DNA of 36,147 nucleotides from Bacteroidales bacterium (lineage in GTDB: Bacteria > Bacteroidota > Bacteroidia > Bacteroidales > UBA932), in the NCBI GenBank assembly GCA_016290725.1, contig JAEEUZ010000006.1:1-36147 (forward strand), written 5' to 3'. The stretch's first letter is position 1. The number at the start of each line of letters is the position of its first letter. The notes under the pieces are model-generated. The model saw nothing but the letters and a program-made list of their open reading frames with translations, made no database searches and was not told the origin of the DNA. This document shows, piece after piece, positions 734 to 36,033 of the stretch. A program made the position numbers and the translations under genes.

Positions 734-892
734 ATGGTAAAAACTTATCTGACAACACGGCAGGCGTACGAGGCTCCCGATACGTCTGTGACACAGATTC
801 AGATGGAGACACGTTTCCTGGACTCCATTACTACAACAAACAACGAGATTCAGGACATGTATCTCGAGGAAATTGAAGACGAAGATTTTTAA
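734..892 (+). CDS. 52-aa small protein upstream of GLUG lipoprotein 1
   Basis: ATG..TAA read by hand: MVKTYLTTRQAYEAPDTSVTQIQMETRFLDSITTTNNEIQDMYLEEIEDEDF. Below the ORF-track length cutoff. Lies 10 nt after the SGNH stop and 15 nt before the GLUG ATG. Resembles the small ORFs at 5645 and 32499. Confidence 0.75.
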   Translation: MVKTYLTTRQAYEAPDTSVTQIQMETRFLDSITTTNNEIQDMYLEEIEDEDF

Positions 893-907
893 TAGGAGGA
901 AAGAAGT

Positions 908-3406
908 ATGAAAAAGTATTTGATTTTTGCTTTCGTCCTCTTTGCAGGACTTTCTGTAGTTCTTTCCTGCTCCAAGATCGAGAAGGAAATCGACAATCCC
1001 GTTGTTGAACCTGAAACCGAGGTTGTAAGCATTCCCGTGACCGTTACTGCCACACTCCCTGATGTCGACACCAAGGTTGCATTTGAAGCCACATTTGACG
1101 CAGCCAGCAAACCCACTGCGATGAAACGCACCTGGGAAGCTGATGATAAGCTTCGCGTCATCAATCCGTCGAACACCTCCCAGTATGTCGACCTTGATCT
1201 TGAATCCGGTTCCACCACAGCAACTGCTGTTTTCCATGGCACGCTGGATTTCACTTCATCGACCTACAATGTTGAAGTTTTCGATGGCAAATCTCCTGTC
1301 ACCAATTACAGCGTTCAGACTCAGGCCAAAAACGACGATACCGATCACCTGCGTTTCGTTGCATCTGCAACTGGCGTTACCGACCTCACCGCTGCAATCG
1401 CTCTGACTGAGTCCTCCGGAGTCCTTGGCATCATTGCTCAACTCCCTGCCTCTGCAACCGAAATCGAGTCTGTCGAGATTGTGAAAATCAGCACCAACTC
1501 AACGGTCCTGAAAATTAATCTCACCAACCCCGCGGTAAGCGGTCAAGTGTTGAAGCTCTATGCAAATATGCAGGCCGGTTTAACCATCGACAAAGGTGAA
1601 TACTTCATCCGCTTCAATGCCCCTTCAACAGCAGCGCACACGGTTTACACACGCTACTACAATCTTGCAAGCGACGTTGCTTTCGGGACCCAGGCATCCG
1701 GCGTAGGCGAATACCGCACCCTCAAGCTGAACTGCGTCAATACCGACAAGTATGCCGGCGGCTCCGACAATGGCTCCGCCACCGCTCCGTACCTCATTGC
1801 GGATGGATATCAGCTCGCCGCGATTAATTCTTATGCGAGCACCTCTGCTACGACATACTTCAAGCTGATTGATAATATCGACATGACAGGTATTACTCAT
1901 GCTCCCATCAACACTGGCATTTCTGGCTATACGATTAATGTGGACTTTGACGGAAACAATAAAACCATCAGTAAACTTGGCACCAGCTTGTTCTATGTGT
2001 TTAAAGGCTCTATCAAGGACCTTACCCTGGATAATTGTTCGGTTAGCAAGAGAGGAATCTTTGCTGAGTATTGCCAGGGAACAGGGCATGTTATCACCAA
2101 CGTGGATATAACAAACGGAACTTTAGAGGGAGGCAGTTTTTCTGGTGGATTGATTGGAAGAATCAACAACGGCAGTGACGGAGTTACCTCTGTGACTATC
2201 ACGGACTGTACTATTTCTGATACCAAAGTAAAAGGTGCAGGTAATGTTGGCGGGATGATTGGTCAAGCAGATGCATTAGTAAAGGTCTCCAGATGTGCTG
2301 TTTCCGGAGGTACTGTTACCTCAACCGCTCAGTTTTGTGGCGGTTTGATTGGCAATGCCAGAAATTACGCTTCTACCTTTACAGACTGCCACGTCTCAAA
2401 TATTACCGTTACTTCTTCCGCTGACCGAGTCGGTGGCCTTGCAGGACAAACTGAAAAACTGACAGCAGTCAATAATTGTTCTTCCACGAATGCAATTGTA
2501 ACGGGAACCATAAACCTTGGCGGACTTTTGGGTATTCTCTATGGTAGTGCCACGGACTGCACTTCAGCCGGAGGATCAATCACCTCAACCAATACGACCT
2601 CTAATACCGACATCGGTCTTGGCGGCCTGGCTGGTTGGTTACAGTACGGCATCATTTCACACTGCTCTTCATCGGTGAGTATCAACCAAACCACAAATGG
2701 CCGTGACATCGGTGGCCTCGTGGGCAAAATGGTTGATGGAACTATTGAAAAGAGCTATGCAACCGGCAATGTCAGTGGTATTCAACGCAATGTCGGCGGT
2801 CTGGTGGGCTTGATTACTCTCGATTCTGGTACCGCGAGTATATCCAACTGCTATTGTACTGGCAATGTTACTGCAAATTCATATTGCGGAGGATTCCTTG
2901 GCCTTCAAGAGAAGGGAAGCGTTTTAATTCAGAATTGTTATGCAAGCGGCAATATTTCTGCGACTGGCGGCTTTGCCGCAGGCGGTATGATAGGTGTTGC
3001 GAGTACCGCGGACTTTACTATGAGTAACAGTGCTGCCTGGAATGGGTCCATTACCCCCAAGAACTACGGTGCAGAAAACTGGAGTTCCGGTGCTGTCGTA
3101 GGTGTAACCTTCCCGAAATGCACACTTACAGACAACTACCGTAACCCCGCAATGTCTTTGACTGCATATTGGGTGCCAGCTGCTGGCTTTAACCATCCTA
3201 ACGTCATCTCTACACGCCCTCTAACTGTTAGCGATGGTGCAGAGATGTCCGATACCGGTACAGGTAAAGGACAGGCTCACTATCCTCAGTATCCTTACCA
3301 CGGCAAGGTAGAAGCAGGTAAGACACTCTCTCAGCTCGCTTCCACCACTCTTGGCTGGGACAGCACCGTCTGGGACTTCACCGACGACCTGCCTACTCTG
3401 AAGTAA
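908..3406 (+). CDS. Large surface lipoprotein: fimbrillin-like N-terminal region plus GLUG-motif repeats
   Basis: Signal peptide and lipobox (MKKYLIFAFVLFAGLSVVLSCSK). N-terminal TKV...TWEADDKLRV resembles FimA/Mfa-type domains. Many GGL(I/V)G repeats. Conserved tail LGWDSTVWDFTDDLPTLK. Confidence 0.85.
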   Translation: MKKYLIFAFVLFAGLSVVLSCSKIEKEIDNPVVEPETEVVSIPVTVTATLPDVDTKVAFEATFDAASKPTAMKRTWEADDKLRVINPSNTSQYVDLDLESGSTTATAVFHGTLDFTSSTYNVEVFDGKSPVTNYSVQTQAKNDDTDHLRFVASATGVTDLTAAIALTESSGVLGIIAQLPASATEIESVEIVKISTNSTVLKINLTNPAVSGQVLKLYANMQAGLTIDKGEYFIRFNAPSTAAHTVYTRYYNLASDVAFGTQASGVGEYRTLKLNCVNTDKYAGGSDNGSATAPYLIADGYQLAAINSYASTSATTYFKLIDNIDMTGITHAPINTGISGYTINVDFDGNNKTISKLGTSLFYVFKGSIKDLTLDNCSVSKRGIFAEYCQGTGHVITNVDITNGTLEGGSFSGGLIGRINNGSDGVTSVTITDCTISDTKVKGAGNVGGMIGQADALVKVSRCAVSGGTVTSTAQFCGGLIGNARNYASTFTDCHVSNITVTSSADRVGGLAGQTEKLTAVNNCSSTNAIVTGTINLGGLLGILYGSATDCTSAGGSITSTNTTSNTDIGLGGLAGWLQYGIISHCSSSVSINQTTNGRDIGGLVGKMVDGTIEKSYATGNVSGIQRNVGGLVGLITLDSGTASISNCYCTGNVTANSYCGGFLGLQEKGSVLIQNCYASGNISATGGFAAGGMIGVASTADFTMSNSAAWNGSITPKNYGAENWSSGAVVGVTFPKCTLTDNYRNPAMSLTAYWVPAAGFNHPNVISTRPLTVSDGAEMSDTGTGKGQAHYPQYPYHGKVEAGKTLSQLASTTLGWDSTVWDFTDDLPTLK

Positions 3407-5545: not shown

Positions 5546-5577
5546 TTTGCATTTTTCCTGCAAAAAACATATATTTG
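5546..5577 (+). promoter_or_regulatory. Promoter for the small ORF 2 / GLUG 2 cassette
   Basis: TTTG (5546-5549), 20-nt spacer, TATATTTG (5570-5577). Followed by the perfect palindrome TCACGCGTGA (5585-5594). Confidence 0.7.
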
Positions 5578-5644: not shown

Positions 5645-5797
5645 ATGATGAAATCCAGCATCACAACACCCGGAACGTACGAGGCTCCCGTAACGTTCTC
5701 GGTTCTGATTGAGCAGGAGCACAATTTCACGGCCACCACAAATGGCCCTGCCCTTGACACCATGGGTACGAACGAATTGTTTGACGAAGATTTTTAA
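5645..5797 (+). CDS. 50-aa small protein upstream of GLUG lipoprotein 2
   Basis: MMKSSITTPGTYEAPVTFSVLIEQEHNFTATTNGPALDTMGTNELFDEDF. Shares YEAP and the acidic (E)DEDF tail with the ORF at 734-892. 16 nt upstream of the GLUG ATG. Confidence 0.75.
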   Translation: MMKSSITTPGTYEAPVTFSVLIEQEHNFTATTNGPALDTMGTNELFDEDF

Positions 5798-5813
5798 GGG
5801 GAGGACAGAAGCT

Positions 5814-8800
5814 ATGAAAAAGATTTTCAATTTTGCCCTCGCCGCAGCTGCTATCGCAGCCCTTTCCTTGGCATGTTCCAAAGAAATCGACACAGAAAAC
5901 GAGAATCCCGGAGAGAACACCCAGGAACAGGTTGTAAAGCCTGCCGCCAAGACCATCACCATCACAGCAACCCTGCTGGACACCAAAGTCAGCTTCGACC
6001 CTGCGTTTGACTCCGGCCACAAGCCCACCGGCATGTCGCACACCTGGCAGACTGGCGACCAGCTTCGCGTTACCGACGAAAATGACCCCACCAACACCGA
6101 CCTCTTCGACCTCGTCAGCGGTGAAGGCACCGACACCGGCGTTTTCGAAGGAACAATCGCCGATGCCGCCTCTTACAGCGTAGAGGTAGTTCCCGCCGGA
6201 ACACCCAGTGAAGGCGTTGCTCAGGAGCAGGCAGGCGACGGCTCTACCGCCCATCTTAAGTATGTGGCTGGCGCAACGCATGTCACAGACCTCAAGAACT
6301 TCACCCTCACCGAGACCTCAAGTATTATCGGCTTTATTGTTAAACTCCCTGCCGGAGTAACTGAGACCATCAATCAGGTGATAATTGAGAAAAGCTCTGA
6401 CGATTTCTTGACAAAATCGACACTTCTCATCAATATTACAGGCACATTATCGGATGTCAATAATGATAACATCCTCGAGGTATATGCCAATATCCCTTCT
6501 GGCTGGGAAATAGAGGCTGACACCAAAATGTTCCTGAGATTCAAATCCACGAACGCCAACCATACTGTCTATACCCGCTACCAGGAGTTCGCCAGCGCCG
6601 CCACCCTCAATGCCGGTGAGTTCAACTACATCAAGATGAACTGCTCCAACATCGACAAGTATGCCGGAGGCGCCGACCAGGGCTCAGCTACCGCCCCGTA
6701 TCTTATCGCGGATCCGTACCAGCTAATAGCAATGGATGGCCTTCTTGCCAGCGAGAAGCACTATTTCAAGCTTCTTTGCGACATTGACATGAACGGGGTA
6801 ACCATAAGTGAATTAATCAATAAGGCCAGCCCCTACAAGCCTTTTGATTTCGATGGCAACAGCAAAACCATCAGCAACTTTAACAGATCACTATTCTACA
6901 TCATCAACAACGGCTCTGTTAAAGACCTTACACTGGACAAATTTGAAGTAACTGACAGAGGTATCCTGGCAGAGTATATCCAGGGGTCTGGCAATGTGGT
7001 ATCAAACGTTACTATCAGCAACGGAAAGGTAAACAGTTCAAGTTCTAATGTCGGCGGTTTGGTTGGGCAGATTAATAGTGGCACTTCAGGTCAGACAACT
7101 GCCACGATTACTGGTTGTACAGTTTCCGGAACCAATGTTAAAGGTGCTGGCGTAGTTGGAGGCGTTATCGGCTTTGCAAACGAACTTGTCTCTATAAGCG
7201 GCTGCAAATACACTGGTGGTACCGTAGAGACTTCTGGCCAGTACTGTGGCGGTTTTGTGGGCTCTACTGCTGACAAGGCATCCGTCATTTCTAATTGCCA
7301 GGTTGAAAATGCGACTGTCAAATCAACCCGTACAGATGATGCGCGCGTCGGTGGTTTTGTCGGACTGACTCAGACCAATGTCCAGATTAAAGGCTGCACA
7401 GTAGGAACTAGCACCAAGAAGGTAGTTGTCAATACGCCTGAGCCGGCTTCCAGTAAAGTCCTTAACGCAGGTGGTTTCGTTGGTGTCAACTACGGTACCA
7501 TTACAAAGAATGGCTCAGTCAGAAGTCAGGCCTATGCTCAGGTCACATCTGCCAATACTCTGGGACAACAGATTAATATCGGCGGCTTTGTTGGCTTTGC
7601 AAAAGGCACTATCGAGTATTCCGATGCTGTAGTTGACATGTCAGATTTGCAGGGACAGTATATCGGAGGTTTTTGCGGCTATGTTTTAACTAATGGAACA
7701 AAAGTGGATAATTGCACAGTCTCCGGTTCCGTTAAGGGTAATAATTACACGGGCGGATTTGCTGGTTATGTTACTAATAACACCACTCTAACCAATAATC
7801 AAGTTCTTACCGGCAGCACAGTAAGTGGTCAAAGTTCTATAGGTGGATTTGTCGGGTTCTGTAATGGCGGCTCAGTATTTGAGGACAATAGCAGTGCAGC
7901 AAATCTCTCCGTTAGAGGCTCCAACGCGGGAGGCTTTGCCGGAGCAATCGAGGATGCAACTATGACCCGATGCTCATCTACAGGTACCGTTACCAAGATT
8001 GAAGGGACTGGCAATGTTTTAGGCGGGTTTGCCGGATATACAGATAATGCCACCCTTGATGGATGTTTCTCCAAAGGTGCCGTATCTGCCAATGGACTGA
8101 AAACCGAATATGTCGGAGGATTCATCGGACAGGTTAAACCTGCCGCTTCCAACACCTCCGATATTCAGAATTGTTATGCAGAAGGAGATGTTAACGGAGA
8201 GGGCCGCTGGGTCGGAGGTTTCATAGGCTATATCTACATTGCCACCCCAGGAACAGCTACCATCTCAAAATCCCACGCAAGCGGCAATGTTTCTTCCACA
8301 GGCAATTACTGTGGCGGGTTTATCGGACGTATCCAGATGACTACTGACGTCTCCATTGAAAAATGCTACGCGACAGGCAGCGTATCCTCTACTGGCAGCT
8401 ATAGAGCCGGCTTTATCGGAGATATTGATGGAGAAAATGCCCATCATACCATCAGCGACTGTTATGCAACAGGGGCTGTTAACATTCAGAATACCAGATA
8501 TTGTGGCGGTCTCATGGCAGGCATACAGAAAAATCCGGCGAGCGTTACCATATCTCGTTGCTATACTGCGAGCGCTGTATCGGGAACTTTTGAAGTCGGT
8601 GGTATGATTGGACGCACTAATGCAGCAAACTTCACTCTGAATGATTGTGCAGCGTGGAATACCTCCGTTTCCGCTTCTTCGCGTGGACAGACTAACTGGA
8701 GTTCAGGTTCGATCATCGGAGTTACACATCCCAATGGCCACGCCAGCAATAACTACCGAAACCCTGATATGGTACTCGAGGTATACTGCGTCCCTGAGGC

Positions 8801-9065
8801 GAACTTTGACCAGCCAGATATAAATGGAACCACATCTCCTTTGTACTGGAATAGCCAGACCGCACCTTTCACCTGGAGCTCTTGCACTGCTACAGCCATA
8901 TCTGCTGGCTCCGGCAACGTAGATGCAGGCAGGTGGGCTTATCACGGTAAGCACAGCACAACCAATCGCCTTTCAACCCTTGCATCTACTGCTAAGGCAA
9001 GTGATGGCCTTGGTTGGGACAGCGCTGTCTGGGACTTCAGCGGAGAGTTGCCTACGCTGAGATAG
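5814..9065 (+). CDS. Large surface lipoprotein: fimbrillin-like N-terminal region plus GLUG-motif repeats
   Basis: Start reset from 5709 to the ATG at 5814, giving lipoprotein signal MKKIFNFALAAAAIAALSLACSKE. DKYAGGADQGSATAPYLIA then many GG(F/L)(V/I)G repeats. Tail LGWDSAVWDFSGELPTLR. Confidence 0.87.
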   Translation: MKKIFNFALAAAAIAALSLACSKEIDTENENPGENTQEQVVKPAAKTITITATLLDTKVSFDPAFDSGHKPTGMSHTWQTGDQLRVTDENDPTNTDLFDLVSGEGTDTGVFEGTIADAASYSVEVVPAGTPSEGVAQEQAGDGSTAHLKYVAGATHVTDLKNFTLTETSSIIGFIVKLPAGVTETINQVIIEKSSDDFLTKSTLLINITGTLSDVNNDNILEVYANIPSGWEIEADTKMFLRFKSTNANHTVYTRYQEFASAATLNAGEFNYIKMNCSNIDKYAGGADQGSATAPYLIADPYQLIAMDGLLASEKHYFKLLCDIDMNGVTISELINKASPYKPFDFDGNSKTISNFNRSLFYIINNGSVKDLTLDKFEVTDRGILAEYIQGSGNVVSNVTISNGKVNSSSSNVGGLVGQINSGTSGQTTATITGCTVSGTNVKGAGVVGGVIGFANELVSISGCKYTGGTVETSGQYCGGFVGSTADKASVISNCQVENATVKSTRTDDARVGGFVGLTQTNVQIKGCTVGTSTKKVVVNTPEPASSKVLNAGGFVGVNYGTITKNGSVRSQAYAQVTSANTLGQQINIGGFVGFAKGTIEYSDAVVDMSDLQGQYIGGFCGYVLTNGTKVDNCTVSGSVKGNNYTGGFAGYVTNNTTLTNNQVLTGSTVSGQSSIGGFVGFCNGGSVFEDNSSAANLSVRGSNAGGFAGAIEDATMTRCSSTGTVTKIEGTGNVLGGFAGYTDNATLDGCFSKGAVSANGLKTEYVGGFIGQVKPAASNTSDIQNCYAEGDVNGEGRWVGGFIGYIYIATPGTATISKSHASGNVSSTGNYCGGFIGRIQMTTDVSIEKCYATGSVSSTGSYRAGFIGDIDGENAHHTISDCYATGAVNIQNTRYCGGLMAGIQKNPASVTISRCYTASAVSGTFEVGGMIGRTNAANFTLNDCAAWNTSVSASSRGQTNWSSGSIIGVTHPNGHASNNYRNPDMVLEVYCVPEANFDQPDINGTTSPLYWNSQTAPFTWSSCTATAISAGSGNVDAGRWAYHGKHSTTNRLSTLASTAKASDGLGWDSAVWDFSGELPTLR

Positions 9066-9072
9066 CCCTGTA

Positions 9073-9257
9073 TGCGGAAGGTCCTCCGCTCACGTGCGGA
9101 AGGTCACCTTAGTTTTTGCGGAAGGTCTCGAAAAAGTGTCGGGACCTTCCGCATTGTATGTGCGCCAGTGCCCGTTTCGCGCGGAAGGTACCCACAACAA
9201 AAACAGACCTTCTGCACTGAGACGAGGGACCTTCCGCAAACAAACCAGACACCTTCC
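9073..9257. repeat. Intergenic hairpin array, copy A (TGCGGAAGGT / ACCTTCCGCA words)
   Basis: Eight copies of the word (one or two degenerate) in both orientations, including hairpin TGCGGAAGGTC (9117-9127)/GACCTTCCGCA (9143-9153). 9095-9238 is ~96% identical to 10278-10421. Confidence 0.9.
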
Positions 9258-9409
9258 GCATGGCAAAGGTTAACGATGCATCATTCCCGTCCCGCCCAGT
9301 TCGGAAGTATTATTAAGAAAAATGATTAAAAAACAGAAAAAGACATAAAAAACATAAAAATCCGCATCTGAAGAGCGAAGAGACGAGATATCTTATAGGA
9401 TTAATATCG

Positions 9410-9506
9410 ATATTTGCAGGCGTTGGTCAGAACTAAACGCCGGGGAAAACTAAACCCGATGGCTTGAATCTCTTCAGGGGCCACCGGGAATCAACACTGC
9501 AAATAT
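9410..9506 (+). ncRNA. Candidate structured RNA upstream of the Abi-family gene
   Basis: Closing stem ATATTTGCAG (9410-9419)/CTGCAAATAT (9497-9506). Hairpin GGCGTT..AACGCC (to 9441). Hairpin CCCGATGGC (9455-9463)/GCCACCGGG (9480-9488) with inner TTGAA/TTCAG. Confidence 0.6.
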
Positions 9507-9535
9507 ATAGCTTTTCAATTGAAACGCCAAATTTT

Positions 9536-10228
9536 ATGAGATTTCTTGTTTTTGAAGCCATCATGTCGCCCAAACGGATTCGACGCTACGTGAATGCTTG
9601 TGGTGGCGACACACGTAAGGCGATGACACTGTATAGGTATAATCTCAAACTGTCCCTTGAAATGTTCTCTGTTATAAGCTGCTACGAAGTTGCGCTTCGT
9701 AACGCGATTGACATGAATATGACTAAGCATTTCGGCCCGCACTGGCTGAGGGACTCAATTCTTCCGGGAGGTTTTTTTGATAATCCGGTTTTTTCGGGCA
9801 CTTCCAGAATTATTAAAAAGGTGTATGCCGATCTTATGGGTACAGGCCGATACTCTCCTTCTAAGATGATTTCAGCAATGGAATTTGGCGTATGGAAGTA
9901 TCTTTTTTCTGCAACAGAATACCGTGCAACAGGAAGGACTCTTCTTCAAGTTTTCCCAAATAAGCCTAAATCTTCACCAAAGAATCAGTATAACAATCTA
10001 TACGTATTCAACGAAATGGATGCCATTAACAGGCTTAGGAACAGAATTGCACATCACGAGCCAGTATGCTTTAATCAAGATTCAGATGAGATTTCAACAG
10101 TTCACCTTCAGAGTTGCTACTCCCGTATCATGGACTTGTTTTCATGGATGGGAATTTCATCCAAAGAACTCTTGTACGGTATTAACCATGTATTGAGAAC
10201 ATGCGAAGCAATAAACACCCTTATTTAG
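9536..10228 (+). CDS. Abi-family (Abi_2-like, AbiD/AbiF-type) HEPN protein
   Basis: IMSPKRIRRYVNACGGDTRKAMTLYRYNLKLSLEMFSVISCYEVALRNAID and HEPN motif RNRIAHHE. Start at the ATG at 9536 (alternative 9563); the track start at 9464 is a TTG inside the upstream RNA. Confidence 0.8.
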   Translation: MRFLVFEAIMSPKRIRRYVNACGGDTRKAMTLYRYNLKLSLEMFSVISCYEVALRNAIDMNMTKHFGPHWLRDSILPGGFFDNPVFSGTSRIIKKVYADLMGTGRYSPSKMISAMEFGVWKYLFSATEYRATGRTLLQVFPNKPKSSPKNQYNNLYVFNEMDAINRLRNRIAHHEPVCFNQDSDEISTVHLQSCYSRIMDLFSWMGISSKELLYGINHVLRTCEAINTLI

Positions 10229-10594: not shown

Positions 10595-10713
10595 GCAGGA
10601 TTCAGGTGCGGGGAAGTTGTTTGTTTTCAACTGAGCCGGCAAGGATATTTGATTTTTTTTTGAAAAATCACTACTTTTACGAGTTAATTGACACTTAACA
10701 CTTTAACCAAAAT

Positions 10714-13700
10714 ATGAAGAGACTTATTATTGTGACATTCCTTGGCCTGCTGATGTGCCTCCCGCAGCTTGTGCTGGGGCAGGTCAGAGAGGTGAAGGGA
10801 ACCGTTGTGGACACGGAGGGGGAAGCGGTCATAGGGGCCGGAGTGATGGTGAAGGGCACAAGCAACGGTACTATCACCCTGACCGACGGCTCCTTCTCTC
10901 TCAGGGTTCCCGGAGATGCAACCCTTGTGGTTTCCTCCATCGGCTACAAAAGCCAGGAGGTTCCCGTTAACAACCGCACCACCATCCACATCGTCCTGGA
11001 AGAAGACCAGCAGATGCTTGAAGAGGCGGTTGTAGTGGGCTACGGCGTGCAGAAAAAGGAAAACCTTACTGGCGCCATTTCGGTTGTAACGTCCAAATCC
11101 ATCGGCAACCGTTCCAATTCCAGCCTTGGCGGAATCCTTCAGGGTACGGTTCCCGGCCTCACCGTCACATCGGCATCCGGCCGCCCCGGAGAGAGCGTTT
11201 CGCTGAATATCCGCGGTTGGAACTCCATCAACAGCGGTTCCCCTCTGGTTCTGGTCGATGGCGTAGTTGGCTCCCTGGACAGGGTTAATCCCAACGACGT
11301 GGAAAGCATTTCCGTGCTTAAGGATGCCTCTTCCGCTGCGGTTTACGGTGCAAAGGCTGCATTTGGCGTGGTGCTGGTTACTACCAAATCCGGCTCCGAC
11401 AATGAAGGCCACGCAAAGGTGAACTACAGCAGCCGCTGGGGATGGTCTTCACCCACCACATCCACCGACTGGGAAACCAGGGGATATGACGTAGTGAGAA
11501 CCACAAACAAATTCTCCGCGAACTACGATGGTTCGCAGCAAATCAAGTACAACGAAGACGACATGACTGAATTGTGGCTGAGGCGCGACGATGTTACGGA
11601 GAATCCCGCCCGTCCATGGGTTGTACTTGACGATGCCAACAACGGATACAAGTATTATGGCAACACTGACTGGTGGCATTACTTCTTCAACGACGAGAAG
11701 CCCACGCAGAACCACAATATCTCCTTCCGTGGCGGCACCAAGACCATCAAGTACTTCCTGTCGGCCAACTACAATCAGGAGCAGGGTATCTTCAGGCAGA
11801 ATCCGGACAAGTACGACAAATACAATCTGCGCGCAAGATTCTCCTTCGATGCGAACTCCTGGCTGAACATAAGCAACAATACCGCCTTCTATTCGTCCAC
11901 GTACAATTATCCGGGACTTGCCGATATGGACGACACTTTCTACAAGTGCACAGCCGGATATTTTTCCTTCCTGACTCCTACCACCCCTGAAGGAACCTAC
12001 CTCTACAAGAGCAATCACGGCGGCGGCGGTCAGACCATCCTTGGAAACCTGGCCAATCCGAACTTCGTAAACCGGAGAAGGACCAACAACTTTACCAACA
12101 CCGCGGAGGTTACCATAAAGCCTGTCAAGCAGCTTGAGATCAAAGGCAATTACACTTATTCCTATAATACTTACTCTCAGCTGAACCGCTCAGTCAACGG
12201 TACATTTGCATCTACTACCCGATTGAAGACGGAGTTAATTACTACCGGCGACAATGAGGACAAACTTTCCGAGCAGATGCAGACGATTGATATGCATACC
12301 TTGAACCTGTATGCCACTTACTCGGACACTTTTGCCGATGCCCATAATCTGAAAGTCATGGCCGGCGGCCAGTACGAATCATATTATCACAAGAAACTGT
12401 CGGCAACCGCCTACAATCTCATGTCGGAGGAACTGAACGACCAGGGCCTGGTGAGTGCACTGCCCCAGTCGATCACAGGCCCCATCGTCGGAGGGGACGG
12501 AACAACCGCCACCATCCTTTATGATTACAAAAGAATGGAAACTGCAGGCGGACAGAGTGAATACGCACTGCTTGGTTTCTTCGGACGACTCAACTACGAC
12601 TATAAAGGCAAATACCTCCTGGAACTGAGCGGCCGATATGACGGCACATCCCGCTTCCCCAGAGGCCAGCGCTTCGGTTTCTTTCCTTCCGGATCACTGG
12701 GATGGAGAGTCTCGGAAGAACCGTTCTTCGCTCCTGTGAAAAACTGGATGAACGACCTGAAACTCCGTTTCTCATACGGTAGCCTTGGCAACCAGCAGGT
12801 TGGCTATTACGATTACATCCGTTCCGTATCCACCGGCAAGCAGTCATATCTTTTCGGAGGAGACAAGTCCGCAACCGCAGCCTTTGGCAATCCCGTAGCA
12901 GGCGACCTCACATGGGAAACCGTGCAGCAGAAGAATCTCGGCGTGGATATGGCGTTCCTGGACAACAAGATAACCTTCACCGGAGAGGCCTACATCAGGG
13001 ATACGAAGAACATGCTCACCACCGGCAAGGCTCTTCCTTCCGTGTATGGAGCATCGGCCCCCAAGACAAACAATGCCGATCTGCGTACGATGGGCTATGA
13101 GCTGGCGCTTTCCTATAGGAACAGCTTCACGCTCCTTGGAAAACCTTTCGACTACAGCATTACCGGTACTTTCAACGACTATGTCGGCTATATCACCAAA
13201 TTCGACAACCCTACCAACGATCTGGACACATACTACGTAGGGATGCGCTACGGCGAAATCTGGGGATATGTCACAGACGGTTATTTCGCTTCCGATGAAG
13301 AGGCCGCAGCTTATCCCGTAGACCAGTCTCCAATCAATACGATTATCTATGGTAACGGAGGGCTCCGTGCCGGTGACCTGAAATATGTCGACCTGGACGG
13401 AGACAATATCATCAGCACCGGCGCCAATACGGTGGATAAACCCGGCGACCGCAAGATTATCGGCAACTCTCAGCCCCGTTACCAGTATGGCGCCACATTA
13501 GGCTTTAACTGGAACGGAATAGACTTCTCGGCATTCTTCCAGGGTGTTGGCCGTCAGGACTGGTATCCCAGCTCCGACGCCCGTTACTTCTGGGGCCTCT
13601 ATGCCCGTCCGTTCTCCTCCTGGATCCAAAAGGATTTCCTTGACAGATGCTGGAGTGAAGATAATACGGACGCTTACTTCCCGCGCCCCCGCGCATACAT

Positions 13701-13998
13701 CGCTTTCGACAGCAAAGGTCAGCGGTCCCTGGCCGCGGTTAACGACAGGTACCTTCAGAACCTGGGCTACTGCCGTCTGAAGAACCTTACCGTAGGTTAC
13801 ACCCTGCCGGAAAAAATCACGAAAAAGGTGAGCATCGAATCCCTCCGCGTGTACTTCTCCGGTGAAAACCTCGCTTACATCTCCCCGGGACTCCACTGCG
13901 ACTATATCGACCCCGAGGCCGCAGCCAAGACGGCCGGAAAATACCCCGTCTACCCCTGGCAGAAGACATTCATGTTCGGTATTGACATAACCTTCTAA
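10714..13998 (+). CDS. SusC/RagA-family TonB-linked outer-membrane transporter
   Basis: Signal peptide, carboxypeptidase-like domain VKGTVVDTEGEAVIGAGVMVKGTSNGTITLTDGSFSL, plug domain, LRVYFSGENLAYISPG..YPWQKTFMFGIDITF terminus. Confidence 0.95.
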   Translation: MKRLIIVTFLGLLMCLPQLVLGQVREVKGTVVDTEGEAVIGAGVMVKGTSNGTITLTDGSFSLRVPGDATLVVSSIGYKSQEVPVNNRTTIHIVLEEDQQMLEEAVVVGYGVQKKENLTGAISVVTSKSIGNRSNSSLGGILQGTVPGLTVTSASGRPGESVSLNIRGWNSINSGSPLVLVDGVVGSLDRVNPNDVESISVLKDASSAAVYGAKAAFGVVLVTTKSGSDNEGHAKVNYSSRWGWSSPTTSTDWETRGYDVVRTTNKFSANYDGSQQIKYNEDDMTELWLRRDDVTENPARPWVVLDDANNGYKYYGNTDWWHYFFNDEKPTQNHNISFRGGTKTIKYFLSANYNQEQGIFRQNPDKYDKYNLRARFSFDANSWLNISNNTAFYSSTYNYPGLADMDDTFYKCTAGYFSFLTPTTPEGTYLYKSNHGGGGQTILGNLANPNFVNRRRTNNFTNTAEVTIKPVKQLEIKGNYTYSYNTYSQLNRSVNGTFASTTRLKTELITTGDNEDKLSEQMQTIDMHTLNLYATYSDTFADAHNLKVMAGGQYESYYHKKLSATAYNLMSEELNDQGLVSALPQSITGPIVGGDGTTATILYDYKRMETAGGQSEYALLGFFGRLNYDYKGKYLLELSGRYDGTSRFPRGQRFGFFPSGSLGWRVSEEPFFAPVKNWMNDLKLRFSYGSLGNQQVGYYDYIRSVSTGKQSYLFGGDKSATAAFGNPVAGDLTWETVQQKNLGVDMAFLDNKITFTGEAYIRDTKNMLTTGKALPSVYGASAPKTNNADLRTMGYELALSYRNSFTLLGKPFDYSITGTFNDYVGYITKFDNPTNDLDTYYVGMRYGEIWGYVTDGYFASDEEAAAYPVDQSPINTIIYGNGGLRAGDLKYVDLDGDNIISTGANTVDKPGDRKIIGNSQPRYQYGATLGFNWNGIDFSAFFQGVGRQDWYPSSDARYFWGLYARPFSSWIQKDFLDRCWSEDNTDAYFPRPRAYIAFDSKGQRSLAAVNDRYLQNLGYCRLKNLTVGYTLPEKITKKVSIESLRVYFSGENLAYISPGLHCDYIDPEAAAKTAGKYPVYPWQKTFMFGIDITF

Positions 13999-15821
13999 TG
14001 AGTAAGCATATGAAAGCCATAAAAAATATCATAATCATTTTGGGCGTTTCCCTGTGCATGGCCTCATGCGAGGGTTTACTGGACAGGTTTCCTCTGGACA
14101 AGCTTTCCCCCGAGACTTTCCTCTCCACGGAAACGGAGATAAAGGCATATACCAATACGTTTTATCCGATGCTGCCCACTGGCTTCTACAGCGACGGGCA
14201 GAGCGACGCGGTGACCGGCCGCATTCTTTCCCTCGAGATGAAGGGAGGCCGTGCCATCAATTCCGGCGACAGCGGATGGAAATGGACATATCTTCGCAAA
14301 ATCAATACATTCCTGGAGTATGCCGACAACTGCAAGGACGAGCAGCTCAAGAACCAGTATATCGCCCTGGCCCGCTTCTTCCGCGCATATTTCTATTTCG
14401 AAAAAGTGCAGCAGTACGGAGACGTGCCGTGGTACGACCATACTCTCGGTTCCGACGATGAGGATCTGTACAAGCCCAGGGACAGCAGAGAACTGGTGAT
14501 GGACAAGATGATCGAGGATATCGACTTCGCCATCAGCTATCTCCCCACGAACCACTCGGATTATACGATTACAAAATGGACGGCACTTGCCTTCAAGTCC
14601 CGTTTCTGCCTGTTTGAAGGCACTTTCCGGAAATATCACGAGGGTGACGTGACGCTCCTGACACTTCCGGCCGATGCCAAGCCCTACTCCTATTATCTGG
14701 GGCTGGCTGCCGATGCCGCCGACAAGTTCATCGCCTCCAGCGGCTACTCGATTTACAACAATGGGGATCCAGACGCAAGCTACATCGGCCTGTTCACAAA
14801 GTATAACGTTTCTGAAGGAATCAACAAGGAAGTTATCCTGGGCAGGGACTACAATATCGACTACAGCGTAGTTCACACGGCCAATTCCGACTATCTGTCA
14901 ACTACCTTGAATCAGTGGAGCATAACCCGGAAGATCGTTGCCAGCTACCTGATGAAGGACGGAACCCGTTTCACGGACAAGACCGGCTGGGAGACCATGA
15001 GTTTTGTCGATGAGGTGAAGGACCGCGATCCCCGTCTTGCGCAAAGCATCCGTACGCCCGGATACTGCCGCTTGGGAACCGGCACCAAGCTTGCCCCGAG
15101 CCTCAGTACAACCACCACCGGATATTGCCCCATCAAGTATTTAATGGGACCGGCAGACGACACTTATCAGCAGTCCTACTGCGATTTCATCCTTTTCCGC
15201 GCGGCCGAGGTTTACCTGAACTACGCGGAAGCCAAGGCTGAACTGGGAGATATATCCCAGGCCGATATCGACAGGTCCATCAAGCCCTTGCGCGACAGAG
15301 TGGGAATGCCGAACCTGAACATGGAAGCGGCTAATCTGAATCCGGATCCATATCTTTTGGCAAGCGCCACGGGTTATCCCAAGGTAGCACAGAAGAACGG
15401 CACCAATGTGGGCCTTATCCTGGAAATCCGCCGTGAGAGAACGATAGAGCTCCTGGGTGAGGGCTTCCGCTACTATGACATCATCCGCTGGGCCGAGGGC
15501 CATGCGTTTGAACAGCCTATACTTGGAATGTACTTCCCCGGCGCGGGCTCGTACGACCTGGATGAAGACGGTCTTAATGACGTTACCCTTTACACAGGGG
15601 ACAAACCTGCAGACAGCGCCAAAGAGGCATTCAAGATCGGCACTGACATTTTCCTCACGGAAGGAACTTCCGGATGCGTGGATGCATATCATGACGTACG
15701 TACGGGCTGGACATGGGACGAGGGAAAGGACTATTACTATCCCATTCCCATCGAAGACCGCACACTGACTCAGGGCGCTCTTTCGCAGAATCCCGGTTGG
15801 AACGACGGACTGACATTTTAG
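13998..15821 (+). CDS. SusD/RagB-family nutrient-binding lipoprotein
   Basis: TAATG overlap with SusC. Lipobox MASCEGLLD. RAYFYFEKVQQYGDVPW, EVYLNYAEAKAELG, LEIRRERTIELLGEGFRYYDIIRW, terminal LSQNPGW. Confidence 0.95.
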   Translation: MSKHMKAIKNIIIILGVSLCMASCEGLLDRFPLDKLSPETFLSTETEIKAYTNTFYPMLPTGFYSDGQSDAVTGRILSLEMKGGRAINSGDSGWKWTYLRKINTFLEYADNCKDEQLKNQYIALARFFRAYFYFEKVQQYGDVPWYDHTLGSDDEDLYKPRDSRELVMDKMIEDIDFAISYLPTNHSDYTITKWTALAFKSRFCLFEGTFRKYHEGDVTLLTLPADAKPYSYYLGLAADAADKFIASSGYSIYNNGDPDASYIGLFTKYNVSEGINKEVILGRDYNIDYSVVHTANSDYLSTTLNQWSITRKIVASYLMKDGTRFTDKTGWETMSFVDEVKDRDPRLAQSIRTPGYCRLGTGTKLAPSLSTTTTGYCPIKYLMGPADDTYQQSYCDFILFRAAEVYLNYAEAKAELGDISQADIDRSIKPLRDRVGMPNLNMEAANLNPDPYLLASATGYPKVAQKNGTNVGLILEIRRERTIELLGEGFRYYDIIRWAEGHAFEQPILGMYFPGAGSYDLDEDGLNDVTLYTGDKPADSAKEAFKIGTDIFLTEGTSGCVDAYHDVRTGWTWDEGKDYYYPIPIEDRTLTQGALSQNPGWNDGLTF

Positions 15822-21448: not shown

Positions 21449-23617
21449 ATGAAAAGATTCATTCTCGCTATCGCTGCGCTGATTCTTTGCGCCGCAGTGT
21501 GGGCACAGCCCCAGGAGGGCGGTCCCTGGACGAAAACCCGGATTGTGGACGGTATCACATACTACGAGTTCCGGGGCCTGGACGACATCTCAGGGGCGCC
21601 CCAGGAGATATTCGTCATCGACTGGGATATGTCCAACCCGTCGTATGCCCTGCGCTACACATGGACTGCTGACATGACCGTCACATCGTCGGTCTTCCGC
21701 AGGGAAAACGCCGTGGTGGCGCTGAATGCCGCATACGAGCCGGAATCGGTGGCCGTGAAGGTGGGCGGGCACATGTACTCCTGCATGCCCAAGGATACGG
21801 TTATGACTACGCCCGTTCCCAACTGGAAGAGCGAAGGTGCCGTATTCGCGGACGCCACGGGGCAAAACGTGGGAATCGCTTTTGCCGGCAAGGGAATGAG
21901 CATACAGGAGCAGAGAGAATTCTACGCCTCCGCCCCCTGGGACAACCTGTTCACAAGCGCCCCTATGCTCATTGATGATTTCAATCCGGTGGGAGCTTTC
22001 TATGTAGACAGCACTCTCACCGCAGAGCAGTTCAAGGAATATAACTACGAGGATCCCGTGCGCCATCAGGGCGTGAGGCATCCCCGCACCGCAGTTGCCA
22101 TTACGGCCGACAACCACTTCCTCATGTTCGCGGTGGACGGCCGCAAGAAGGGTATCAGCGAGGGAATGTCGGCACGGGAACTCACCCGCTTCATCGAACG
22201 CTATTTCCATCCCCGGTATGCACTGAACATGGACGGCGGCGGCTCCACAACAATGTGCGTCCGCGGCCAGGGAGACCCTCAGACCCACGTTGTAAACTAT
22301 CCCACCGGCAACAAAAAGCACGACCATGCAGGCGAACGCAGGCTGTTCTCACACTTCTGCATAGTGGAGGTGCCGCAGAATCCGCGCACTGATGTCCGCG
22401 AGGAAGTCCTCTCCGACTGGAACAAATGCTCCGGTCTTGACTGCGTGTACGACATGAGCCCCAAGCCCGCAACGGCTGCCCCCAAGGGTTACGAAGCCAC
22501 CTACGTGAGTCATTACGGCCGCCACGGTTCCCGTTACGCATATACTGCAAAGGCATACACCATCCTTCTGGGCATGCTCCGCGAAGCTGAGGAAGCAGAA
22601 AACCTCACACCATACGGAGTTGAACTGCTTAGCCGCCTCTCTGAATTCTGGGCCAACAATGAATACCGTATGGGCGACCTTACCCCCCTGGGCTGGCAGC
22701 AGCATCAGTACATCGCCAAAACCATGGTGGAATCCTTCCCCAAGGCTTTCGGCAAGGGCAGCGTGGTGGATGCGGCCTCATCGCCATCGACCAGGTCGAT
22801 AGTGAGTATGGCGTCGTTCGTATCGGCAATTTCCAGGAATGCTCCCAAGGCCGATGTCTACGCGCACCAGGGTATGCTGGACGTTCAGGCTACCAGGCCC
22901 AACCAGGGCGGTCACAATCCTTTCCGCTATAAGGGCCCGGAATCCGTATTCCCTTACGCGGAAAGCTCGGAGGAATTCTTCCTGCGCCGTTTCCCCAGCT
23001 ATAGCGACGTTCTGGAGCGCATGTTCAAGGACCCCGTGAAAGCCGTGGGAAGCCGCAAGATCTATGACGAAGTTTTCTTCAACCTGTACATGCTGGTGGG
23101 CGGAATGAACAGCATTCCGGAAGAGGTCCGCTTCGACGTGAGCGGGCTTGTAACACCTGAGGAGTACGCCCTCCTTTGGGAATGCGACAACTACGAACGC
23201 CTTCGTGAGTACCTGAAGTACAGGACGTCCTGCTCGTCCATCGTCCAGGATGTTATCGACAAGGCCGATGCACGCCTGGAGAGCGGCAGCCGCGGAGCGG
23301 ATCTCCGCTTCGGCCACGACCACGTGGTGATGGCCCTACTGATGATAATGGATATTGACGATTTCGCCAAATACCCCGCCAATCCGGACGACCTCGTGCA
23401 GGTGTTCCAGACCTTCCGCTCATGCATGGCCACGAACCTGCAGTTCGTTTTCTACACACCCAAAAAGTGCAAAAGCGGCGAGGAACCCCTTGTGAAACTC
23501 CTTCTCAACGGCGAAGAAGTCCGCTTCGGCTCCCTTAAGCCCTACGACGGCCCCTACTACCGCTGGAGCGAGCTGAAGGACTACCTGCTTTCGCGCATCG
23601 CCCTTTTCGTGGATTAG
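21449..23617 (+). CDS. Bimodular enzyme with reversed order: N-terminal phosphodiester glycosidase (NAGPA), C-terminal histidine-type phosphatase
   Basis: N-terminal VVALNAAYEPESVAVK..FAVDGRKKGISEGMSARELTRFIERYFHPRYALNMDGGGSTTM. C-terminal SHYGRHGSRYAY and RFGHDHV. Start at the ATG at 21449; the track TTG at 21428 lies in the promoter-like TATTTTTG. Confidence 0.85.
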   Translation: MKRFILAIAALILCAAVWAQPQEGGPWTKTRIVDGITYYEFRGLDDISGAPQEIFVIDWDMSNPSYALRYTWTADMTVTSSVFRRENAVVALNAAYEPESVAVKVGGHMYSCMPKDTVMTTPVPNWKSEGAVFADATGQNVGIAFAGKGMSIQEQREFYASAPWDNLFTSAPMLIDDFNPVGAFYVDSTLTAEQFKEYNYEDPVRHQGVRHPRTAVAITADNHFLMFAVDGRKKGISEGMSARELTRFIERYFHPRYALNMDGGGSTTMCVRGQGDPQTHVVNYPTGNKKHDHAGERRLFSHFCIVEVPQNPRTDVREEVLSDWNKCSGLDCVYDMSPKPATAAPKGYEATYVSHYGRHGSRYAYTAKAYTILLGMLREAEEAENLTPYGVELLSRLSEFWANNEYRMGDLTPLGWQQHQYIAKTMVESFPKAFGKGSVVDAASSPSTRSIVSMASFVSAISRNAPKADVYAHQGMLDVQATRPNQGGHNPFRYKGPESVFPYAESSEEFFLRRFPSYSDVLERMFKDPVKAVGSRKIYDEVFFNLYMLVGGMNSIPEEVRFDVSGLVTPEEYALLWECDNYERLREYLKYRTSCSSIVQDVIDKADARLESGSRGADLRFGHDHVVMALLMIMDIDDFAKYPANPDDLVQVFQTFRSCMATNLQFVFYTPKKCKSGEEPLVKLLLNGEEVRFGSLKPYDGPYYRWSELKDYLLSRIALFVD

Positions 23618-32498: not shown

Positions 32499-32645
32499 AT
32501 GAAAGAAAACAAAACAACCACAGCACCAGGGAAGGCCTATGTCTCCCCTGAGTGTACATGTCTGCTGGTGCAGGAGGAACGGAACATCCTATCCGGCGAG
32601 TACTCAATTCCGAAAATTGAAGAAGAAGATTTAGATTGGGACTAG
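32499..32645 (+). CDS. 48-aa small protein upstream of GLUG lipoprotein 3
   Basis: MKENKTTTAPGKAYVSPECTCLLVQEERNILSGEYSIPKIEEEDLDWD; 11 nt after the phosphoesterase stop and 4 nt before the GLUG ATG. Same layout (Y-x-(A/S)-P, acidic tail) as the ORFs at 734 and 5645. Confidence 0.75.
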   Translation: MKENKTTTAPGKAYVSPECTCLLVQEERNILSGEYSIPKIEEEDLDWD

Positions 32646-32649
32646 CCGT

Positions 32650-35600
32650 ATGAATACACGTTATTACCTCCTTTCGCTTGCCGCAGTGGCACTGCTTGCA
32701 AGCTGCGCCAAAGAAATGCCCGCTCCCGTGGACAATCCCGGCGAAGCCCAGATCAAGACTTATCTTACCGTAGGTATCGCTCCCGAAACCAAAACCCACA
32801 TGGAAGACAACGCAGGCACTTCCCACAAGGTTTTCTGGTCCAACGGCGACAAGATTGCCGTGAACGGCACTGCCTCCGATGCTCTCGCCGGCCTTGCCGA
32901 TGACGTTCAGAGCACGACCTTCTCGTTCTCCGGAGTGCTCAGCACCCCTTACAATGTGGTTTACCCCGCATCCATCTACTCCGATGCAACCCACGTAACC
33001 CTTCCCGAGGTACAGACCTTCGCAGACGGTGGTTTTGCCGATGGCATGTTCCCCATGGCCGGCTACTCTGCCGACGGCAGCAGCATCACCATCAGCCACC
33101 TCTGCGCGGTTCTGAAGATTTCCATCAAGAGGGCAACCAGCGGCACCGTTGACGAAGACAATATCGTAGCCGTACGCTTCAAGGGACGCAATAATGAAAA
33201 AGTGAACGGAAGCTTTGAGATTGACTACACCGCTCCCGCCCTCACCGCTGCTACCGGCACCGGTTCGGAGACGGAAGTTCGCGTTGTCAAGAGCCAGGCA
33301 ACCTCCTCCACCGCCATCGATTACTATCTGGTAGTCCCTGCCCGCGAGTATGCAAGCGGCTTCGACATTATCGTCCAGGACGCCAGCGGCCACATCATGA
33401 CCAAGAGCGCCGGCACTTCCGGCGGAAAGACCCTCGCTGCAGGCAAACTCTACACCCTGCCCGCATTCGAGTTCGTTCCCACCGCAACGGAAGTTGGTGT
33501 GGTAATCGCTACCGCCAGCGACCTCGTTAACTTCGCCATTGCCTTCAATAACAAGGAATATGGTGAAGACGTTGTTGCAACCGTTACAGACGACCTCGTC
33601 TTCGACGCCAACACCTCCGCCGACTTCAATGCCACGAATGGCATCGGCCAGAAGAAAAACGTCCACGGCGCAACTGAGGACAACTATTTCTCCGGCGTTT
33701 TCAATGGCGGCAACCACACAATCAGCGGCCTTGCCGCCACGGTTCCCATCTTTGCCTACACCCAGACCGGCAGCCTGATTCAGAATCTCACTCTGAACAG
33801 TACCTGTTCCCTCACCATTAATGCTTCTGATACTGAAACCGTCCACGGAACACTGATTGGACGCGGTAAAGGTTTTGTCAAGAACTGCACAGTAAATGCG
33901 AATGTGGTGATTAACAACATTCAGAATGTCACCACTGCCACGCAGCATTACGGCGGACTTGTTGGCCGTAACTACGGCGGAACCATTGAGAACTGCACCA
34001 TGACTGGCGATATTACCTGTTCTCAGACCGGACAGACAATAACCGCGAATGATGCCTACTTCGGCGGTATTGCCGGTTCCTTGGGCGATAGTGGTACCGT
34101 GAACAATAGTTCATTCACCGGCAATATCATCCTATCTGACGGCAACACTTATGGCGGAATCACTGCTGAATCGAGAAACTTTATGTTTGGAGGCATTGTT
34201 GCTTATTCGGAAGGCGGTGTTATTTCCGGTTGTACAGCTGGCATAGATGGAACTCCAAAATCTATTGATGTTCGCGGAGTATTTGTCCCTGCTGTCGGAG
34301 GAATTCTCGCCTGGTCCACTACTGCAAAGGATTCTGAAACAAAGAATTGTAATAACTATATGTCCCTGTCTATCGCAAGCGATGGTGCCAGGGCAAAAAC
34401 CACTCCCTGTCGTATCGGTGGTATTGTTGGGCATTCAAATGCCCCCATAAGTGGCTGCAACAATTCAGGAGCTATCTCATCTGCCACAAACTCAACAACC
34501 CTTTACCTTGGTGGTATAGTTGCAGACGGAGTCAATGTCAGCAATTGCACCAACAACGCAGAAGGAACTGTCACCAGATCAAATGCTGACCAGGCTGCGG
34601 ATCAAGCTAATAGGTATATGTATTTGGGTGGTATCATGGGAACGGCCATGGCTTCTGGTGACATAACCAACTGTACCAATCATGCTGCAATTACCAGTAA
34701 TGTTCCCGGAACGGCTACTGCAACGACACTTGACATGGGAGGTATCGCAGGAGCTAATGGATCTTCGACCAATTTTTATCAAATTGACATATCCGGATGC
34801 GTGAACGATGGAGAAGTTAAGCTTGATAATGATAATGCTTCTGCCGTTGCTGCTGCGAGGAACGACGTTGGTGGAATTATGGGTTATAATAATGCCGCCT
34901 CATCTACCCTTTCTGGTTGTACAAACGAAGGTAAAGTCTGGTGTAATAACAATGCTTCCGGTTCTTATGGTCCTATCGCTATTGGCGGTATGGTTGGACG
35001 TTCTTCAGCGGCTTGCACGGTTACGGATTGCGTTAACAAAGGAGCCATACTCTGCCATAATGTTGGCGCTTCCACAAAAACCACAGTAGATGTCGGTGGA
35101 ATTGTTGGTTGGGCCGAAGGAAAGATTACGATTTCCGGCACCAATTCTGGTGATACAAGGAATAGCGGGACTATAGATGTTGAAGATACAGCCAGCGCAA
35201 TAGCTTATGCAAGAACTACGATGGGTGGTATTTTAGGTTTTGCTTCTGCCGCTGACAGCAAGATTACCAATTGCAATAATTCTGCACAGGTTCATTGTGA
35301 ATATACGACATCGGGTACTGACCGCCGTTCCTATATTGGCGGTATTGCAGGAGTGATGGCTAATTTAACCTATAATACTGACGGTACACCAAAGGGATTT
35401 GGCGGGTGCAAAGGATTTGAGATAGCTTCCTGCAACAATACCGGAGCAGTTTGGTCTCGTAATCTTAACACATCCGGTGGAAATAAGACTGGAAACTTTA
35501 CAGGAGGAATCGTTGGCGCTTTGGCAGGTCTTGATGCTGACAACAAAGCATCTCTACATGATTGCACATCCGCTACAGGGCAAACCACGAACTATCGTGG

Positions 35601-36033
35601 GTTCGCCGGAGGTATTGCCGGTTACTTGTCTTCTGCAGATCTTTCAGACAATTCCGCTTCTCAAACCATTACAGGCAATCAAAAGAATTCAAGGGGATCT
35701 GGTGGCATTGTTGGTTCAGCCAATAACAGCTCCACCCTTTCCAATTGTACTTTTAGCGGGACTATCAATTCCGCTTATAACATTGGCGGTCTTGCATATG
35801 TTTTCAATGGTGGGTCCATTACCGGATGTAAGGTTAACGGAGCAACAATTACAAAGGGGACCAATGCTTCGGCTACCGCAGCGGCAGTCCTTGTGAGCAA
35901 TGCAGCTTCCGGTACCACGATCTCCAACTGTGGTGTAAAGGGCACCCTTGACGGTGCGGCCATCACCCTGTCTTCCAATATGATTACCACTGACGGCGGC
36001 GCCACTGTAAGCGGCACCTACCTCATTCCGTAA
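32650..36033 (+). CDS. Large surface lipoprotein: fimbrillin-like N-terminal domain plus GLUG-motif repeats
   Basis: Lipobox ALLASCAKE; APETKTHMEDNAGTSHKVFWSNGDKIAVNG (fimbrillin-like); many GG(I/L)(V/M/A)G repeats. Confidence 0.87.
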   Translation: MNTRYYLLSLAAVALLASCAKEMPAPVDNPGEAQIKTYLTVGIAPETKTHMEDNAGTSHKVFWSNGDKIAVNGTASDALAGLADDVQSTTFSFSGVLSTPYNVVYPASIYSDATHVTLPEVQTFADGGFADGMFPMAGYSADGSSITISHLCAVLKISIKRATSGTVDEDNIVAVRFKGRNNEKVNGSFEIDYTAPALTAATGTGSETEVRVVKSQATSSTAIDYYLVVPAREYASGFDIIVQDASGHIMTKSAGTSGGKTLAAGKLYTLPAFEFVPTATEVGVVIATASDLVNFAIAFNNKEYGEDVVATVTDDLVFDANTSADFNATNGIGQKKNVHGATEDNYFSGVFNGGNHTISGLAATVPIFAYTQTGSLIQNLTLNSTCSLTINASDTETVHGTLIGRGKGFVKNCTVNANVVINNIQNVTTATQHYGGLVGRNYGGTIENCTMTGDITCSQTGQTITANDAYFGGIAGSLGDSGTVNNSSFTGNIILSDGNTYGGITAESRNFMFGGIVAYSEGGVISGCTAGIDGTPKSIDVRGVFVPAVGGILAWSTTAKDSETKNCNNYMSLSIASDGARAKTTPCRIGGIVGHSNAPISGCNNSGAISSATNSTTLYLGGIVADGVNVSNCTNNAEGTVTRSNADQAADQANRYMYLGGIMGTAMASGDITNCTNHAAITSNVPGTATATTLDMGGIAGANGSSTNFYQIDISGCVNDGEVKLDNDNASAVAAARNDVGGIMGYNNAASSTLSGCTNEGKVWCNNNASGSYGPIAIGGMVGRSSAACTVTDCVNKGAILCHNVGASTKTTVDVGGIVGWAEGKITISGTNSGDTRNSGTIDVEDTASAIAYARTTMGGILGFASAADSKITNCNNSAQVHCEYTTSGTDRRSYIGGIAGVMANLTYNTDGTPKGFGGCKGFEIASCNNTGAVWSRNLNTSGGNKTGNFTGGIVGALAGLDADNKASLHDCTSATGQTTNYRGFAGGIAGYLSSADLSDNSASQTITGNQKNSRGSGGIVGSANNSSTLSNCTFSGTINSAYNIGGLAYVFNGGSITGCKVNGATITKGTNASATAAAVLVSNAASGTTISNCGVKGTLDGAAITLSSNMITTDGGATVSGTYLIP

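Follow-up and report, generated by a model that had tools for sequence, protein, structure and literature searches.

Small ORFs upstream of lipoprotein genes

What is encoded by three small open reading frames (ORFs) that lie directly upstream of three genes for large lipoproteins in a Bacteroidales genome (GenBank assembly GCA_016290725.1)? The window, by which we mean the whole stretch of DNA that was analysed, is the entire 36,147-base contig JAEEUZ010000006.1 of this 2.4 Mb assembly of 232 contigs. Our answer, to which we give a probability of about two in three, is that the ORFs encode precursors similar to ribosomally synthesized and post-translationally modified peptides (RiPPs), which would depend on a RiPP recognition element (RRE), be processed in trans and be matched to fimbrillin-like lipoproteins.

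The ORFs (positions 734–892, 5645–5797 and 32499–32645, all on the plus strand) encode YxxP leader-core peptides 1, 2 and 3 of 52, 50 and 48 amino acids; gaps of 15, 16 and 4 nt separate their stop codons from the lipoprotein gene starts at 908, 5814 and 32650. The first-pass annotation had placed them here, 48–52 residues long and 4–16 nt ahead of the lipoprotein genes, and had ascribed to them a Y-x-(A/S)-P motif, an acidic end and no signal peptide. All of this was borne out: the motif and an acidic tail are present in each peptide and a hydrophobic signal segment in none. In peptide 1 the leader MVKTYLTTRQAYEAPDTSVTQIQMETRFLDS is followed by a variable acidic tail ending in EEIEDEDF.

The count of three copies did not hold, since the genome contains at least 25; the earlier observation was right and understated. 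A hidden Markov model (HMM) of the three window peptides retrieved ten more small ORFs in the same genome, and an HMM of these 13 sequences raised the number to 25, which is a lower bound. For all 25 copies, the distance to the start of the neighbouring gene, which encodes a signal-peptide protein and nearly always a fimbrillin-like lipoprotein, is −4 to +20 nt (23 partners are lipoproteins by a simple rule and 2 are secreted proteins with a signal peptide). The pairing is far from chance because the 22 copies beyond the original three are all directly 5′ of a secreted-protein gene. Among 394 small ORFs of the window, the genus-level HMM A4, which includes peptides 1–3, gave clear scores for those three only; HMM A6, built without them, recovered the ORF at 734–892 with E=4.5e-8 and the other two weakly (0.01–0.05).

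The association with secreted proteins, for which the first-pass annotation had proposed an HMM search, recurs across Bacteroidales. Family members were found in 32 of 41 genomes (40 sampled from the same genus and that of the window), and for 26 of the 27 complete ORFs inspected among these same-genus hits, the gene that follows encodes a lipoprotein or a secreted or membrane protein, in one case (L086) an MlaE-like permease. A DNA motif scan over one genome per species (84,980 bacterial and archaeal species) matched at least 118 stretches, 80 of which were listed; among the matches listed, all but one carry the titles Bacteroidales, Bacteroidia, Bacteroidaceae, Prevotellaceae or Phocaeicola, and their sources are mostly rumen and gut metagenome-assembled genomes (MAGs). 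In this 80-locus sample a lipoprotein or secreted protein follows 73 of 81 peptides, and the one clear false match, L176, is a non-Bacteroidales frame. Because the scan favours the EG..C.S subtype, position statistics were redone on HMM-found members.

In other families, relatives of the peptides sit 3′ of large secreted proteins, at two loci (L088 and L098) after proteins with a type A sorting domain of the type IX secretion system (T9SS). Genome G144 has many such relatives (loci L102, L105, L106, L107 and L093); three of its secreted proteins have near-identical C-termini (GIETVQVSEPEANGYYNLAGQRVAKATKGLYIVNGKKVIMK), which suggests shuffling of cassettes made of a protein end plus a peptide. 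In rumen Bacteroidales MAGs, YxxP peptides precede genes for secreted ubiquitin-domain proteins (PF00240; L137:1101–3029 and L113:5889–6611, both on the minus strand; E=1.7e-16 and 1.9e-25), one of them fused to BspA-type leucine-rich repeats (LRR).

Searches of Pfam, NCBIfam and PHROGs returned no meaningful family match for the peptides, and no earlier description of the system was found in open-access papers. The peptides are a large family of ∼46 residues, unnamed before, which occurs in gut and rumen Bacteroidales beside surface adhesin lipoproteins.

The partner lipoproteins

The first-pass annotation took GLUG repeats as the mark of the partner. Lipoprotein 1 (908–3406, plus strand, 832 amino acids) has a signal peptide, a lipobox, a fimbrillin-like N-terminal domain and GLUG repeats; lipoprotein 2 (5814–9065, plus strand, 1083 amino acids; ∼40% identity to lipoprotein 1) has a fimbrillin-like N-terminus and GLUG repeats as well. 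For lipoprotein 3 (32650–36033, plus strand, 1127 amino acids), the first 400 residues were modelled with AlphaFold (mean pLDDT 67); in Foldseek the model matched solved fimbrillins, the best match being BF1861 (3sy6, E=3e-7), but the TM-scores were low at 0.2–0.5. Cys19 of the lipobox is invariant in an alignment (A9) of paired lipoproteins.

A fourth GLUG protein (15849–17840, plus strand), inside a SusCD operon, lacks a peptide, as had been noted earlier. It has a BT_3987-like N-terminal domain and aligns to the other window GLUG proteins from about residue 171 onward only. The partner of the peptide is therefore the lipoprotein with a fimbrillin-like N-terminus, and GLUG was rejected as the key feature. 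The peptide is also absent beside the fimbrillin-like lipoprotein of a SusCD operon on contig C122 (L329), so the peptide marks stand-alone cassettes and not every fimbrillin-like lipoprotein. The paired lipoproteins share fold and lipobox with fimbrillin/type V pilus subunits and FimA/Mfa-like adhesins (3sy6 BF1861, 3t2l and Mfa4 5dhm) but differ in bearing GLUG, LRR or immunoglobulin-like (Ig-like) C-terminal parts. We found no description of such a peptide in known fim and mfa operons in open-access papers.

Coding selection and modular structure of the peptides

The small ORFs evolve as protein-coding sequences under purifying selection. Among 33 independent pairs, picked by nucleotide identity, the ratio of non-synonymous to synonymous changes (pN/pS) was 0.41 in frame (confidence interval 0.35–0.47) vs 1.06 and 1.28 in the other frames, and substitutions at codon positions 1, 2 and 3 numbered 229, 196 and 405. 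We conclude that the ORF is translated and that selection acts on the protein.

Numbered from the Tyr, the consensus reads K-3, Y0, [AS]2, P3, E6, V7, [VI]10, E13, often G14, [IL]16, C17 and S19; after these come a stretch rich in Gly, Asn and Ser and an acidic tail in which W or F lies close to the end. Small residues at −3 and −1 are the rule for cleavage by signal peptidases; in 62 of 69 HMM-found peptides small residues occupy C17/S19, vs 0–40 at shifted positions.

The N-terminal half (Y-x-x-P...V..V..E..hC-x-S) is common to members whatever their lipoprotein, and the C-terminal half follows the partner. Over 129 cassettes, similarity of the C-terminal half correlated with similarity of the paired lipoprotein when the N-terminal half was controlled for (partial r=0.093, reached in 0 of 1000 permutations); the N-terminal half, with the core controlled, did not correlate significantly (272/1000). 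With related lipoproteins removed (n=101), the corresponding counts were 0/1000 for the core and 211/1000 for the leader. Among pairs with similar leaders, the core-lipoprotein correlation was rho=0.37 to 0.48, with rho=0.37 (0/1000) for the 83 non-redundant pairs, and one contig carries two cassettes (L163 and L177) whose leaders are identical and whose cores and lipoproteins differ. This pattern is the one expected if shared machinery reads the front half and the partner reads the back half, and the conserved leader positions and the variable, partner-matched core agree with a RiPP precursor, which has a conserved leader and a variable core.

An RRE, kinase, peptidase and exporter set

Leaders of lasso peptides carry a YxxP motif (PMC10368454), which prompted a search for RREs of the PqqD type. 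Of the 41 same-genus genomes, 35 have a stand-alone RRE ORF; its usual setting is an operon that also encodes an HprK-like kinase, a peptidase of S24/S26 type, an ABC exporter and sometimes a nucleotidyltransferase of the NTP_transf_5 family. The only significant PDB relative of the RRE is TfuB1, a lasso RRE (6jx3, E=6e-5). The S26-like proteins retain S-M-x-P, H-R and G-D-G, which we take to be the Ser-His signal peptidase pattern.

A genus-only RRE profile and a broad peptide profile were both run on 247 Bacteroidales genomes. The RRE was found in 15 of 18 peptide genomes vs 34 of 247 overall (p=3e-12), and in 11 of 12 peptide-bearing families (p=1.7e-7); in a peptide search that predated the RRE idea, it was present in 8 of 9 peptide genomes. 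Inside the genus, peptide and RRE are modestly associated (p=0.015).

Physical linkage is seen in other families. At locus L306 a single strand carries a peptide gene (5792–5929), a lipoprotein gene ending at 7962, and genes for the HprK-like kinase (8026–8919), the S24/S26 peptidase (8923–9420), the RRE (9417–9683) and the ABC exporter (10672–12408). The peptide gene of locus L307 (16343–16486) is located 38 nt 5′ of the HprK gene, which is followed on the same strand by S26, NTP_transf_5 and ABC genes, with the RRE match between S26 and NTP_transf_5. Peptide, lipoprotein and machinery genes occur together at loci L308 and L316 too. Among 13 genomes outside the family of the window's genome that have both peptide and RRE, the two are at most 6 kb apart in five (0.21 expected, P=3e-6). 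Thus RRE, peptidase and transporter genes are linked to the peptide, as in RiPP loci, in other families, and are present in trans in the window's genome, where the RRE and ABC genes are on contig C137, S26 on C142 and HprK on C105.

In the mechanism that we propose, the stand-alone PqqD-type RRE would bind the leader (K..Y-x-x-P..E-V..V..E..h-C-x-S, residues ∼1–20 from the Tyr) in trans. Cleavage after C-x-S by a signal-peptidase-like enzyme of S26B type would follow, and the core, which is rich in Gly and Asn, acidic and ends in W or F, would be exported through the ABC transporter. The HprK-like kinase, and in many genomes also the NTP_transf_5 nucleotidyltransferase, would modify the peptide. 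Each core would be encoded on the same mRNA as one fimbrillin-like outer-membrane lipoprotein and be matched to it; most likely the core acts outside the cytoplasm, as a ligand or accessory subunit of its lipoprotein.

Several observations weigh against this reading. All machinery genes of the window's genome are on the three contigs named, none beside a peptide gene, and the linkage comes from other families; NTP_transf_5 was not found there in a search that had no positive control. Four genomes (G088, G114, G122 and G207) have a strong RRE match and no detected peptide: either their precursors escaped detection or the substrate is different. Conversely, peptide genomes G096, G193 and G272 have no RRE match. 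The correlation between core and lipoprotein is small across all pairs. Finally, the leader aligns with lasso leaders in register but weakly (hhalign E=0.002, probability 14%, 14 columns). At loci of the four peptide-less genomes (L320–L322) we observed operons with RRE and NTP_transf_5 genes and, in those read, an HprK-like kinase, S26 or ABC gene.

Comparison with lasso peptides and other known systems

The lasso reference comprised proteins A, B1 (the RRE), B2, C, D, K (kinase) and N (nucleotidyltransferase) of the bsf, paeninodin and pseudomycoidin systems (PMC10368454, PMC8498205). Like the lasso tailoring pathways, the set described here has a discrete PqqD-type RRE, an HprK-like kinase, a nucleotidyltransferase and an ABC exporter, and the leaders match, though weakly, in the register [YW]xxPxx-E-[VL]xx-[VI]. 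With regard to lasso YxxPxL, YxxP is present in all members (it was a search criterion), while position P+2 has T, V or A instead of a conserved L. The Thr at the penultimate position of lasso leaders is replaced by Glu (E13 in that register, in 57 of 69 HMM-found members). Unlike lasso cores, the peptides show no Gly1/Asp8 ring pattern and no fixed acidic ring residue, and unlike lasso loci, the RRE loci read have an S26-type peptidase instead of cyclase and B2. Among 416 RRE-locus ORFs, only a separate cluster, L235, matches cyclase C (Asn_synthase-like) or B2 (Transglut_core3). Since cyclase and B2 are missing from RRE loci other than L235 and Glu stands in place of Thr, we do not count the peptides as lasso peptides. 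Another difference from lasso systems is the presence of ∼25 dispersed precursors, each with its own lipoprotein gene.

Lasso pathway kinases phosphorylate the C-terminal Ser, and the phosphate receives hexoses from the nucleotidyltransferase (PMC8498205). The family peptides seldom end in Ser, so the target of the kinase and nucleotidyltransferase would differ from that in lasso peptides. The lasso-like cluster L235:2613–12930 (genome G013, same genus) encodes Asn_synthase, HprK, sulfotransferase, PqqD and Transglut_core3 proteins and adjoins a gene for a fimbrillin-like lipoprotein (594–2180).

The kinase-like and PqqD-like proteins match models of SynChlorMet-type/PqqD-HprK cassettes (TIGR04248, TIGR04249 and TIGR04352) weakly, all far under the curated cut-offs, and the partner genes differ. 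Bacteroidales RiPP clusters surveyed previously come from the same order and likewise combine short precursors with ABC export; that survey curated clusters via modification enzymes adjoining precursors, and a search of its text found no mention of YxxP, S24 or fimbria (PMC10352776).

Alternative explanations

The small protein could be a dedicated cytoplasmic chaperone or assembly tether, which would stay inside the cell, bind the nascent lipoprotein and guide its export or surface assembly. The tight one-to-one pairing, the acidic tail, the absence of a signal peptide, translation just ahead of the lipoprotein with a Shine-Dalgarno (SD) sequence at the junction, and the covariation of the C-terminal half with the lipoprotein all agree with such a role. 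We nevertheless regard it as unlikely: it explains neither why the peptides co-occur with, and are linked to, the RRE, signal peptidase and exporter nor why all members have a common leader whatever their partner, and some relatives adjoin T9SS cargo, which uses another export route.

Still less likely is a translated regulatory leader, whereby translation of the small ORF would control or couple that of the lipoprotein gene. Its position and spacing would suit this role, and SD sequences of at least 5 nt are enriched at peptide/lipoprotein junctions (28/68 vs 10/69 other operon junctions and 14/189 other starts), with 0 at small ORF starts; translational coupling therefore probably exists besides. 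However, amino-acid selection extends across the whole ORF, the fixed motifs are N-terminal and not at the stop, and RNA structure is inconsistent (z of −1.7, −1.8 and +0.8 at the three window junctions). Relatives located 3′ of surface-protein genes and the association with the RRE set likewise disagree with an element acting in cis upstream, independently of the peptide. The first-pass annotation had offered this reading beside that of a dedicated partner or modified peptide. Coding selection, recurrent pairing and core covariation speak for the latter direction; the regulatory leader is disfavoured, and the GLUG framing fell away with the partner analysis. The shared leader, the trans-acting RRE/signal-peptidase/exporter set and the size of the family had not been foreseen.

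Strong SD sequences at these junctions (window 893–908 and 5798–5814; L112–L191) are unusual in Bacteroidota; in the window they are AGGAGGA at 894–900, between the stop of peptide 1 and the start of lipoprotein 1, and GGAGG at 5800–5804 in junction 2 (both on the plus strand). In two window junctions GGAGG is predicted to pair with CCUC further 3′. An RNA attenuator was considered and found unconvincing, with z near −1.7 at two junctions and +0.8 at the third.

Least likely is a bacteriocin or signal peptide, matured in the same way and aimed at other cells, for which the lipoprotein would serve as immunity protein or receptor. The many hypervariable cores of a genome, each matched to a large surface protein, and RRE/ABC machinery typical of secreted RiPPs would fit. 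The partners, however, do not resemble known immunity proteins: they are adhesin-like, 400–1100 amino acids long and contain GLUG, LRR or Ig-like repeats. Nor are lysis, immunity and regulator genes linked in the loci read. A GG-leader (C39) bacteriocin was rejected on inspection for want of a double-glycine site; C39 genes were not searched for.

Other features of the window

Cassette 2 may have a promoter of its own, judging from a Bacteroidota-type promoter-like site (TTTG-N20-TATATTTG, 5546–5577, plus strand) ∼68 nt 5′ of peptide 2; cassettes 1 and 3 begin 10–11 nt past the end of the preceding gene. NAGPA phosphodiester glycosidase domains are encoded by three genes after the SusC/SusD operon in region 10714–23617, and two of these genes have His_Phos_2-like matches; the region is possibly a phosphoglycan-targeting locus. 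An Abi_2-family (abortive-infection-like) gene (9464–10228, plus strand) lies just 5′ of the SusC operon.

Implications

Going further than the RRE-dependent precursor reading, we tentatively consider a ‘peptide-armed adhesin’ system, a doubtful extension in which one RRE/signal-peptidase/exporter machine would process precursors encoded at dozens of scattered sites. After export, each core would dock into the fimbrillin-like lipoprotein that belongs to it, either as a ligand or as a complementing strand, and the cell surface would thereby be diversified. Such a system, if real, would use a branch of the lasso machinery without cyclase to build surface structures, not antibiotics.

Adhesin-like lipoproteins let Bacteroidales dominate gut and rumen surfaces, and for most of these proteins no partner is known. 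If our reading of the small ORFs as RRE-dependent precursors is right, it names a hidden co-gene of these lipoproteins, provides a first candidate substrate family for the orphan RRE/S26/ABC operon and reveals lasso-type machinery serving many precursors in trans. The peptide genes are missed by annotation because of their small size, and dozens of such genes per genome may be overlooked.

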